A stretch of 59,043 nucleotides of DNA from Flavobacteriaceae bacterium (GTDB taxonomy: Bacteria > Bacteroidota > Bacteroidia > Flavobacteriales > Flavobacteriaceae), in assembly GCA_009886755.1 (NCBI GenBank), contig QXYU01000038.1, forward strand, positions 26,904 through 85,946. Reading direction: 5' to 3'. Position 1 is the first letter of the stretch, and each line of letters begins with the position of its first letter. The notes below the pieces were generated by a model, which saw nothing but the letters and a program-made list of their open reading frames with translations, was not told where the DNA came from and made no database searches. The position numbers and the translations under genes were made by a program. Positions 1,207 to 3,896 of the stretch are shown here, in pieces.

Positions 1207-2412
1207 ATGCGCGTACTGTTTTTAACACTAATGATTGGCATGGCTTCTTGTTCTACTGAGAATCCATTGGTGCGGATCATGCAATCCAAAAAAAAAGAAA
1301 TAGCTGTAATTACCAAAAATCAAGACCAACACGCTGTCCAAATCCGCTATACGCAGATCGAACGAGACAGTTTTAACAGACCAATATTCAAGTCCTTTGA
1401 GTTTGGAGTGGATGAGTCGCGGTATTTTTACCCTGCCAGTACAGCCAAACTTCCCGTTGCTATTCTAAGTTTGCAGCGTTTAAGAGAATTACAAGCCGAG
1501 GGGTTTGCGGTTGATATGGATACCCCCTTTCAGATAAAAGACCCTCAAACAGCTGCGATTGTTGCGGTTCGTGATAGTACCCATCCCCAACAGCAACTAA
1601 CAGTAGGACACTTAATCAAAAAAATATTTTTAGTCAGTGATAACGATGCATATAATTATTTATTTGACTTTCTGGGACGTGACTATATTAATACAGAATT
1701 AGAGAAAAGAGGTTTTAGCGCGGTACAAATACATCATAAGTTTCTGTTGGGAGCCGATAATGTGAACAGCTGGGAATATGCGTTTTTTGACGGAAAGAGA
1801 GCCCTCTATGAACAAGCGTCCAAAGTGTCTGAGTACACCCGTACTAATGAAGGATTGGACGGCGTGCTGCAAGGGAGAGGGTTTATGAAAGATGGCGTTT
1901 TGGTGGAAAGACCGATGGATTTTCGAACGAAAAATCGTTTGTCAATACGAAGCTTGGAAGAGCTGCTTAAACGGGTGCTGTTTCCTGAACTATATGAAAA
2001 ACAACAACGTTTCGGTCTGTTACCAGAAGATTATGCCTTTTTGCGTTATTGGATGAGTCGTACCACTATGGAAGGGGAATCACCACGCTACACCCCAGAA
2101 CAGGGCTACTATGACAGCTATGTGAAATTCTTAATCTATGGCGATCAGCCAGGACAGATGTCTTCCACAGTCCGAATTTATAATAAGGTAGGAGACGCAT
2201 ACGGAACCCTTACTGATTCGGCCTATATCGTAGATAAAGAAAAGGACATTGAGTTTTTACTTACAGCTACTATTTTGGTTAATGCCAATGCGATTTTCAA
2301 CGATGATATTTACGAATACGATGGTTTGGGCTTCCCTTTTTTAGGAGAACTCGGGCGGCAAGTGTTGGAATGGGAACAAAAAAGAAAGCAGGCCCATCGG
2401 CCTGCTTTGTAA
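1207..2412 (+). CDS. Class A beta-lactamase-fold serine hydrolase, lipoprotein
   Basis: 401 residues from ATG 1207, chosen because it starts a lipoprotein signal (MRVLFLTLMIGMASC, lipobox Cys15); the frame is open further upstream but overlaps the previous gene. The serine beta-lactamase/PBP motifs are present in order: S78-TA-K81 (SxxK), S144-D-N146 (SDN) and K327-V-G329 (KTG-like). At 401 residues it is longer than classical class A enzymes (about 290), and I see no clear omega-loop ExxLN glutamate. It may therefore be a penicillin-interacting or peptidoglycan hydrolase-like protein rather than an antibiotic resistance enzyme. It is anchored by lipid on the periplasmic side of the inner membrane or in the outer membrane. 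The last codons form half of a terminator hairpin (2385-2408). Confidence 0.85.
   Translation: MRVLFLTLMIGMASCSTENPLVRIMQSKKKEIAVITKNQDQHAVQIRYTQIERDSFNRPIFKSFEFGVDESRYFYPASTAKLPVAILSLQRLRELQAEGFAVDMDTPFQIKDPQTAAIVAVRDSTHPQQQLTVGHLIKKIFLVSDNDAYNYLFDFLGRDYINTELEKRGFSAVQIHHKFLLGADNVNSWEYAFFDGKRALYEQASKVSEYTRTNEGLDGVLQGRGFMKDGVLVERPMDFRTKNRLSIRSLEELLKRVLFPELYEKQQRFGLLPEDYAFLRYWMSRTTMEGESPRYTPEQGYYDSYVKFLIYGDQPGQMSSTVRIYNKVGDAYGTLTDSAYIVDKEKDIEFLLTATILVNANAIFNDDIYEYDGLGFPFLGELGRQVLEWEQKRKQAHRPAL
2385..2408. terminator. Strong hairpin between convergent units, inside the end of a CDS
   Basis: A perfect 10-bp stem AAAGCAGGCC/GGCCTGCTTT with a CATC loop. On the minus strand it is followed by C and a run of six T (CTTTTTTG), a good intrinsic terminator for the small minus-strand unit that starts near 2556. 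On the plus strand the hairpin encodes the last residues of the beta-lactamase-fold protein and lacks a clear T run beyond its own TTT, so it would work less well there. Confidence 0.75.
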
Positions 2413-2434
2413 ATAGTAGATAAGGATCTAGTTC

Positions 2435-2500
2435 CTAAAAGGCCTCAGTAGTGAGGGCCTGAAGTCTTGAACTATTCCTTAAATGATTATCATAAGACAT
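2435..2500 (-). CDS. 21-codon ORF with a perfect Shine-Dalgarno
   Basis: An ATG at 2500 opens 21 codons ending in TAG at 2435-2437. The peptide begins MSYDNHLRNS and ends QALTTEAF; it is hydrophilic with no signal or membrane segment. The SD AAGGAGG sits 6 nt before the ATG, ideal spacing. The unit has its own promoter (2563-2591), a leader hairpin (2533-2548), a hairpin over the final codons (2440-2460) and a terminator (2385-2408). No same-strand gene follows: the next gene on that side is convergent. It is therefore not an ordinary leader peptide in front of an operon. It could be a microprotein, or a small RNA whose ORF serves as a ribosome landing site. I do not recognise the peptide. 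Confidence 0.6.
   Translation of the reverse strand: MSYDNHLRNSSRLQALTTEAF
2440..2460 (-). other. Hairpin overlapping the end of the 21-codon ORF
   Basis: On the minus strand AGGCC-C-TCA...TGA-GGCCT forms a 5+3 bp stem with one bulged base and a short loop, followed by TTTT. The stem covers the codons for ALTTEA, so a translating ribosome would open it. It could act as a weak terminator or an attenuator-like element upstream of the stronger terminator at 2385-2408. Confidence 0.5.
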
Positions 2501-2504
2501 AAGA

Positions 2505-2516
2505 CACCTCCTTTCT
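2505..2516 (-). promoter_or_regulatory. Extended Shine-Dalgarno, 12 nt complementary to the 16S 3' end
   Basis: The minus strand reads AGAAAGGAGGTG, the exact complement of the usual bacterial 16S tail CACCTCCTTTCT. The core AAGGAGG lies 6 nt from the ATG at 2500. Other starts in the window lack an SD: the bases before the starts of pdxA, fabH, accC and atpD are pyrimidine- or A-rich. This makes the site stand out strongly. Confidence 0.75.
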
Positions 2517-2532
2517 ACATTAAATTAAACAT

Positions 2533-2548
2533 CACTGTTGTCACAGTG
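2533..2548 (-). other. Leader hairpin of the small minus-strand unit
   Basis: CACTGT and ACAGTG form a perfect 6-bp stem around a 4-nt loop, lying between the predicted transcription start (~2556) and the SD. It is a likely structural element of the 5' part of the small transcript. Confidence 0.5.
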
Positions 2549-2562
2549 CTCACGGGTCATTC

Positions 2563-2591
2563 CAAATTTAGAAATAGTTTTGGAGCTCCAA
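2563..2591 (-). promoter_or_regulatory. Promoter of the small minus-strand unit
   Basis: Minus strand: TTG (2589-2591), 18 nt, TAAATTTG (2563-2570). This is an exact match to TTG...TAnnTTTG with suitable spacing, one of the best promoters in the window. It predicts a start near 2556 and a transcript of roughly 175 nt ending at the 2385-2408 terminator. Confidence 0.6.
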
Positions 2592-2593
2592 AA
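2578..2593. repeat. 16-bp perfect palindrome over the -33 box
   Basis: TTTTGGAGCTCCAAAA is fully self-complementary. It starts just after the antiporter stop codon and covers the TTG of the promoter at 2563-2591, the position expected for a dimeric regulator's operator. It has no loop, so an RNA hairpin role is less likely. Confidence 0.45.
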
Positions 2594-2594
2594 C

Positions 2595-3863
2595 TTAATC
2601 CACCAATTTTTTTAGAGTTAATCCCTGGCCTAGAATGGTGAACAAAACTACGGCATAGGTAAGGATTAAAATCAATGATTTCCCCCCACCCATACTCTCG
2701 GGTAAATTCAGTGCTAGAGCAACGCTAAGTCCTCCTCGAAGCCCTCCCCAAGTGATGATTAGAGCGGTTCGTTTTTCAAATTTTTTCCAAATAGATAATA
2801 TTGTAATGGGCACCGTAACCCCAATCCAACGCGCAATGACGACAATTAGGATGGTCAGTACGGAAACAATCAAATAAGAAAGTTTAAAGCCTTCGGCAAT
2901 GGTGATGATCTCCAAACCGATTAGGATAAATAAAATGGCATTGAGCGTTTCGTCAAGCAAATGCCAAAACTTATAGACATAGTCTCCCATAGCCCTTTGC
3001 AAACCTTTGGTACGATTATCAGTATCGATGTTTTGGTTTAAGAAAAGGCCCATAACGACAATACCAAGTACGGCAGAAAAGTGGAAACGATGAGAAATGA
3101 TGGGGAGCAACAATACCAAAGAAAGAGTAATGAGTACTTCCAACTCGACAAACTCATTTTCTACATATTTAACCAGTTGGAGGCCTAAGTATCCCATGAT
3201 TGCGCCTAAGACAACCCCTCCAAAAACTTCTGTAACAAACAAACTTGCTACACTGCTGGCTGTGATATTATCCACGCCGTCTTGCTGAATACCCAAAAGG
3301 GTAAGAAATACAACAACACCAATTCCATCGTTAAAAAGAGATTCTCCAGCAATACGGGTCTCTGTAATTGAAGAAAGATTCATTTTTTTGACCATAGCTA
3401 GAACGGCAATTGGATCGGTGGGTGCAATTAAAGCGCCAAAAAGCAAGCAGTCTATATAGGTGAGTCCCAGTTCTCCAAGTCCAAGAAAATGCAGGCTAAG
3501 CAACCAATTCAAGGTAGTTCCGATTGCAAAAGTGGAAAAGACAACCCCAAAAGAAGCCAGTAGCAAAATGGTGAGTTTGTCTTTTAAGAGTTCGTGAACG
3601 TTCACACTAATGGCTCCCGCAAAGAGTAAAAAAGGAAGCATCACGTTTACTAGGAGATTGCTAAAATCATATTCTTTTGAAATCAGCCGAACAGTGTCAA
3701 AAATGGATGGGAAAACCAAGCCGATGCCCATAATGGACAGTGACATAACTAATGCGAGCACCATCAAACCAATGGTGGTGGGTAGTTTAAGCAGTCGGAT
3801 GTTGACCAAAGAGAAAAAGGCAGCAAGACTGATTAGTATCGTCGATAATTCAAGAATTTTCAT
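2595..3863 (-). CDS. Na+/H+ (cation/proton) antiporter, CPA1 family
   Basis: 422 residues from ATG 3863. The frame extends to an upstream TTG, but the ATG begins the first membrane helix directly. About 12 hydrophobic segments span the protein. The family signatures APTDPIAV (T149-D150) and GESLFNDG (N178-D179), which carry the ion-binding acidic residues, are in place. It ends shortly after a glycine-rich helix, with no long cytoplasmic tail such as an RCK domain. It is an inner-membrane exchanger of Na+ (or K+) for protons, for pH and salt homeostasis. It lies 33 nt downstream of riboflavin synthase on the same strand and may be read from that promoter. Confidence 0.9.
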   Translation of the reverse strand: MKILELSTILISLAAFFSLVNIRLLKLPTTIGLMVLALVMSLSIMGIGLVFPSIFDTVRLISKEYDFSNLLVNVMLPFLLFAGAISVNVHELLKDKLTILLLASFGVVFSTFAIGTTLNWLLSLHFLGLGELGLTYIDCLLFGALIAPTDPIAVLAMVKKMNLSSITETRIAGESLFNDGIGVVVFLTLLGIQQDGVDNITASSVASLFVTEVFGGVVLGAIMGYLGLQLVKYVENEFVELEVLITLSLVLLLPIISHRFHFSAVLGIVVMGLFLNQNIDTDNRTKGLQRAMGDYVYKFWHLLDETLNAILFILIGLEIITIAEGFKLSYLIVSVLTILIVVIARWIGVTVPITILSIWKKFEKRTALIITWGGLRGGLSVALALNLPESMGGGKSLILILTYAVVLFTILGQGLTLKKLVD

Positions 3864-3896
3864 GTTTATGGTATTTTGCCTCAAATTAGGGAAAAA

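Follow-up and report, generated by a model that had tools for sequence, protein, structure and literature searches.

An unannotated small gene with an extended Shine-Dalgarno sequence in small-genome Flavobacteriaceae: a candidate translated RNA for anti-SD-exposed ribosomes

In a number of small-genome Flavobacteriaceae there is a so far unannotated gene that would give rise to a short translated RNA with an extended Shine-Dalgarno (SD) sequence. We place about an even chance on the reading that ribosomes whose anti-SD is exposed engage this RNA, and that its occupancy by such ribosomes matters more than the peptide it encodes. The gene family, its SD, its open frame and its hairpins are established by sequence comparison, in part of sequences that were themselves found through the SD. 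The element was studied in a 59,043-nucleotide stretch of DNA (the window) from a Flavobacteriaceae metagenome-assembled genome (MAG), where every part named in the preliminary description (promoter box, leader hairpin, SD, ATG, open reading frame (ORF), hairpin and terminator) is present on the minus strand (Table 1). Its proposal that an SD-less genome conceals a small gene with an extended SD has also held up, through conservation of the family, a frame kept open and weak pairing at other starts in the window.

The predicted RNA has a length of about 180 nt and a single ORF of 19-21 codons. In the window, 4 nt separate the end of the SD TAGAAAGGAGGTG from the ATG, and the element as a whole folds more stably than shuffled sequences (z -3.68). 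The sequence AGAAAGGAGGTG has a single site in the window genome of 1.78 Mb, and the window copy scores 149.9 bits with the second of two covariance models, among whose training sequences it was included.

Table 1. Positions of the element and its parts in the window
Feature	Position	Strand	Content or basis
Whole element	2378-2570	-	-7 box, P1, SD, 21-codon ORF, P3, TCCTTATCTA, terminator
-7 promoter box TAAATTTG	2563..2570	-	Seen in sequence and kept in most copies
P1 leader hairpin, stem CACTGT/ACAGTG, loop GACA	2533..2548	-	Fold
Extended Shine-Dalgarno TAGAAAGGAGGTG	2505..2517	-	13-nt complement of 16S tail CACCTCCTTTCTA
21-codon ORF MSYDNHLRNSSRLQALTTEAF	2435..2500	-	ATG 2500, stop TAG 2437-2435
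P3 hairpin over last codons	2440..2460	-	Ends 2 nt ahead of stop codon
TCCTTATCTA, near-invariant 16S-tail-like segment, SD-complementary	2417..2426	-	Alignments, pair counts
Intrinsic terminator, CGATGG loop and T run	2378..2408 (hairpin 2408-2385)	-	Pair counts
Upstream neighbour, Na+/H+ exchanger (PF00999), outside element	2595..3884	-	Pfam

Distribution and genomic setting

At least 47 distinct copies were gathered by DNA search, pattern scan, family genomes and a covariance model; the covariance-model and homology searches of relatives that had been proposed earlier yielded a gene family within which both SD and ORF are conserved. A DNA search of 60 genomes recovered the window copy itself, further copies from the three other genomes of its genus (G003 twice) and one from another genus; no element is present in G058, the sixth match. 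When contigs of named genomes were scanned with a pattern, at least 40 members (32 distinct and eight repeats of copies already in the set) were among the 120 stretches listed, to which L099, cut by its locus end, is added, and all 41 among these listed matches are titled Flavobacteriaceae, Flavobacteriales, Flavobacteriia, Candidatus Arcticimaribacter or Bacteroidetes. In 299 family genomes, eight of the nine pattern matches listed are members and the ninth (G153) is due to chance; a reversed-pattern control gave four.

These counts carry the imprint of how the copies were collected. The pattern contained AAAGGAGG, which is part of the SD, and TGTGACAACA, the P1 core, so the invariance of SD and P1 is overstated, since most copies came through a pattern holding parts of both. 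Members were kept from the 120 listed stretches only if GAAAGGAGG, TGACAACA and CGATGG were all present, and copies lacking one of them were therefore missed there; eight of the stretches that failed this filter were read, one of which (L099) proved to be a member. Two chance matches (L023 and L071) and one duplicate core (L096) were dropped before counting.

A covariance model (R1) built from 42 copies was run on 397 family genomes and found a true copy in 17 of them, with scores of 68 to 168 bits. These genomes fall into nine genera, all are about 1.3-2.2 Mb in size, and one copy (G297) is decayed. In the other 18 of the 35 genomes with listed R1 matches, scores were 42.7 bits or lower; the 13 that were read (L215-L227) are unrelated, mostly terminator-like, and the other five weak matches are in G111, G340, G360, G410 and G419. 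Under strict filters (E up to 1e-5), the second model recovered nothing but the window copy from 395 genomes drawn from the order, and no true match beyond the window copy in 295 drawn from the class, where two 40-bit matches (L228 and L229) were false on reading. The distribution of the element is patchy. A phage origin was also considered: 17 viral contigs matched the pattern, and none was a member on reading. The family was not found in Rfam, Pfam or NCBIfam, and Rfam 15 gave no match above its gathering threshold in the window, the best sub-threshold resemblance (CC2171, 21.6 of 75 bits) not being repeated in six relatives. Among the titles and abstract openings listed by searches of open-licence PubMed Central papers, none describes this RNA.

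The apparent second copy in G003, a 72% complete MAG, lies at L008 (G003:C40) and has a core identical to that of UBA980 (L096); it may be a misbinned contig. In L003:1531-1700, from a 66%-complete MAG of the window's genus (G001), AGG replaces the start ATG, which is either a true loss or an assembly error. Finally, the decayed copy of G297 (L214) has its SD changed to AAAGGAAG, a broken P1 and an eroded terminator around an ORF that is still open, and by these features it is apparently a natural loss in progress.

Of 43 copies, 36 have an exchanger of one cluster as their upstream neighbour, and seven further loci, including the decayed copy and L210 and L211 of one genus, have it too. The usual upstream gene is absent in five of the 43 loci: at L049, L105 and L133 the exchanger is missing and a riboflavin synthase relative adjoins, and at L080 and L117 the element sits at another genomic place, between opposite-strand genes. 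L053 and L090 run into the end of their contig or locus. The L080 and L117 copies (L080:3208-3369 and L117:6046-6207) are divergent and have a sodium/calcium exchanger for a neighbour, where other copies usually have a sodium/proton exchanger.

Downstream, the genes of the 43 loci fall into eight clusters (blastp at 1e-8; ORFs of at least 80 aa): a 2OG-type oxygenase in 21 (by Pfam, one representative), a putative glycosyltransferase in 11 and six others in the remaining 11. A leader-peptide attenuator, or the 5' leader of the next gene, would be expected to have a fixed same-strand gene downstream. There is a slight chance of a link to a neighbour, because the downstream gene is co-directional at 34 of the 43 loci and 36 of the 43 have the exchanger upstream; however, nine of the 43 downstream genes, including that of the window, are on the opposite strand, the clusters are eight in number and the terminator is conserved, and we regard this explanation as barely credible. 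From its arrangement across loci, the element instead appears to be a free-standing gene.

Promoter, hairpins and the 16S-tail-like segment

The element would be transcribed from near 2558. A -7 box of the form TAnnTTTG is present in 39 of 46 copies (one copy was skipped at a contig end), against a mean of 2.3 and a maximum of 6 in shuffles, and it ends at a nearly fixed distance of 11-16 nt, mostly 15, before the leader hairpin. The sigma-A box consensus and the -12 to -5 position used here are those given in passages of PMC9723704. The preliminary description had proposed a promoter of TTG-N18-box form, and although TTG does stand 18 nt upstream of TAAATTTG in the window, only the box is general: TTG occurs at 17-24 nt from it in just 10 of 46 copies.

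Taking P1, the helix between the SD and TCCTTATCTA, and the terminator together, 77 cells of the alignment are changed on both sides of a pair, compared with 21.1 in shuffles; 65 of them belong to the terminator, eight to P1 and four to the SD helix. In the terminator, 7 of 10 pairs are changed on both sides and 99.7% of cells are paired; its CGATGG loop served as a collection filter and is also present in an unrelated terminator (L220). In the window, at 2385-2412, the terminator hairpin overlaps the 3' end of a convergent beta-lactamase-like ORF (PF13354) that ends at 2412. P1 has one covarying pair (GC 18, GU 10, AU 7, UA 1 and unpaired 2, of 38), and the invariance of its core TGTGACAACA arises partly by selection of copies, as the core belonged to the search pattern. 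The P3 hairpin has a mean z of -2.55 over 45 copies (L020 and L032 were skipped), compared with +0.74 for a control region; it is conserved while its sequence varies, and the stop codon or the base before it is paired in 43 of 45 copies. The exceptions are the window copy (z only -0.7) and its near-twin L003. A pseudoknot between the GACA loop and TGTC after the SD, spotted by eye, is unsupported, since both sides are near-invariant and L006, L047, L060, L090 and L124 miss part of one side (the first three and the last two as groups).

Between ORF and terminator lies TCCTTATCTA, whose L080 version (CTCCTTTCTA) almost reproduces the 16S tail. Its complementarity to the SD is real, and the helix is chosen by RNAalifold, has 95.9% of its cells paired and shows two pairs changed on both sides, in the L212/L213 clade only. 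These points would suit a self-regulating mRNA of the kind seen in metastable toxin mRNAs, with an SD that the 3' TCCTTATCTA masks until processing or ribosomes free it. However, folding disfavours such sequestration: the computed pairing of the SD core is 0.69 in the full RNA, 0.66 when the RNA is cut before TCCTTATCTA and 0.75 with TCCTTATCTA shuffled, and it is higher in the full than in the shuffled RNA in only 12 of 46 copies (L117 left out). The peptide, moreover, is by inspection not hydrophobic, and we consider this model very unlikely.

The near-invariance of TCCTTATCTA in the alignment, and its complementarity by inspection, with a bulge, to the SD of rpsU, could also reflect a base-pairing small RNA in which this segment or the loops target mRNAs and the ORF is secondary. 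Any such target would be putative, and the perfect complement TAGATAAGGA is not enriched: six genomes hold 32 sites of it and 37 of the reversed control, and the counts are three against three in the element's own genome, where one of the three is the element itself; this role seems quite improbable. Dual-function small RNAs, of which SgrS/SgrT is an example, are nevertheless comparable in being short units of promoter, ORF and terminator, and the element has, by sequence, its own promoter and terminator. It differs from them in that its SD is among its most conserved parts and that its base-pairing targets would be putative.

Reading frame and peptide

Read from ATG to first stop (in L003 from its AGG), the ORF is 20 or 21 codons long in 43 copies out of 45, and longer in L032, which has lost its stop, and in L020, which contains an N. 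L212 and L213, outside the 45, have 19-codon ORFs. Because ORFs were read in this way, the informative point is the lack of short ones: none of 43 copies has an early stop, compared with a mean of 32.3 of 43 when columns are permuted, and 0 of 2000 permutations were as low. Furthermore, the three indel sites in the ORF alignment are each 3 nt long. The comparison thus indicates that the frame is maintained open, and the RNA may be translated.

The product could be the 20-residue peptide itself, the strong SD merely controlling its synthesis. In favour of such a microprotein are the near-constant length of 20-21 aa (43 of 45), a recurrent MSY..N.LR..QQ.P pattern and changes in the Pro codon that fall mostly on the third base (2, 1 and 12 at positions 1, 2 and 3), as do those of Leu-8 (0, 1 and 5). 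However, pN/pS is 0.72 against a column-permutation mean of 0.87, a non-significant difference with 32 of 200 permutations as low, so that constraint on the amino acids is weak, and pairing within the hairpin may account for part of the nucleotide conservation. In G091 and G306 the peptide (MSNTKYSSWNGLDDAFLVI) is unrelated and the SD is kept. Searches of Pfam with three peptides and of NCBIfam with four gave no match, though queries this short are insensitive. We therefore regard the microprotein as rather unlikely: of the earlier proposal the open frame stands, and 'translated RNA' is the stronger reading because amino-acid constraint is weak.

The extended Shine-Dalgarno sequence and rpsU

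The preliminary description gave the SD as a perfect 12-nt complement of the 16S tail. The match is indeed perfect, and because the 16S ends of G306 and G325 read CACCTCCTTTCTAGAG, it extends to 13 nt provided that the A is part of the mature tail. The intended comparison with the organism's own 16S 3' end found that the window MAG lacks this end; among 17 element-carrying genomes searched the 3' end is present in those two, whose tails agree with the SD and likewise contain GGAACACCTCCTTTCTAGAG, as do the tails of eight of nine relatives (the ninth has TTTTTAG).

Bacteroidia ribosomes hide the anti-SD in a bS21-bS18-bS6 pocket, so an SD of 12-13 nt should favour tail-free ribosomes, for example those lacking bS21. 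In ViennaRNA duplex calculations the window SD pairs with the 16S tail at -23.1 kcal/mol, compared with -19.9 for the rpsU of the same genome, which lies elsewhere; the predicted 21-aa product of the element is not bS21 and has no Pfam match. Over 47 copies the median is -23.1 and the range -17.6 to -23.3 kcal/mol, biased to strong values because the collecting pattern held AAAGGAGG. Copies found without AAAGGAGG, by BLAST or model, have GAAAGGAGG, GAGAGGAGG or TAAAGGAGG as SD, and the decayed copy has GAAAGGAAG. Exact GAAAGGAGG occurs at 10 sites in the window genome against 22 for the reversed control. Seven are inside longer open frames (including L264, with ATG at +10), at L265 no start codon stands at a suitable distance, and the two that remain, this ORF and rpsU, alone are properly positioned starts not enclosed by a longer frame. 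By comparison, the first-ATG sites of the window's 44 mechanically called ORFs (at least about 150 codons) have a median of -3.5 and a best value of -9.1 kcal/mol.

We found rpsU in 14 of 15 element-carrying genomes searched, 10 of them with an SD of -17.7 kcal/mol or stronger and one (G078) with a weak SD (-9.9). In G091, G107 and G315, rpsU has no SD (-1.5 to -2.6) and the element SD is kept, so the element does not merely mirror rpsU autoregulation. The SD-less loci (L274, L279, L283 and L282) belong to two Flavobacteriaceae genera; G315, which shows 7% contamination, carries rpsU twice, and neither copy has an SD. This pattern suggests that bS21 autoregulation has been lost in these three genomes. 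Genus g72, represented by two genomes only, has an intact element with the weak rpsU SD in G078, and the decayed element with a strong rpsU SD (-17.7) in G297.

Passages of McNutt et al. (2023; PMC9976891) report that autoregulation of rpsU by bS21-lacking ribosomes was shown experimentally in Flavobacterium johnsoniae, that such ribosomes prefer mRNA with an extended SD and, from complete-genome annotations, that SD control in Flavobacteriales may be limited to rpsU. By analogy, bS21-responsiveness of the element is plausible. Like rpsU as described in these passages, it has an extended SD (there forming 9-13 bp to the 16S tail) in an order that otherwise avoids SDs, and at -23.1 kcal/mol in ViennaRNA it is below the -13 kcal/mol that marks the rpsU class, a value obtained with another program (PMC9976891). 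Unlike rpsU, the element encodes no ribosomal protein, is a free-standing short RNA with an ORF-end hairpin and a terminator, and has the stronger SD in the window genome and an SD that is kept where rpsU has none.

Cyanobacterial Downstream-peptide/yfr6 RNAs, in which the leader regulates the ORF, offer another parallel. As far as passages of Weinberg et al. (2010; PMC2864571) describe them, they share with the element a conserved structured 5' part, a short conserved ORF and ORF indels in multiples of three; the element differs in belonging to another phylum and in being dominated by its extended SD.

Since the SD and the open frame are retained while the peptide drifts, ribosome engagement would be the conserved function, and the short RNA engaged by anti-SD-exposed ribosomes remains our preferred reading. 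Tail-free ribosomes would initiate on the RNA made from the free-standing gene and then meet the hairpin near the stop codon, which may slow them. The occupied RNA, whether held, terminated or protected, would then be a readout of, or a sink for, tail-exposed ribosomes, in a manner that may depend on the state of bS21.

In summary, the current view is that Bacteroidia block SD recognition and that Flavobacteriales have one clear exception, rpsU. As such SD signals are thought to be ignored except in that one gene, ribosome state may control a second. That the element is a second SD-dependent gene in the order, whose RNA, with a 16S-tail-like segment of its own, senses or traps tail-exposed ribosomes as a gauge of ribosome integrity, and which is possibly the sole such gene where rpsU is SD-less, we consider possible rather than probable. 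If true, specialized, tail-exposed ribosomes would own a second dedicated target, with an SD better than that of rpsU, and small-genome Flavobacteriaceae would contain a ready reporter of ribosome composition.
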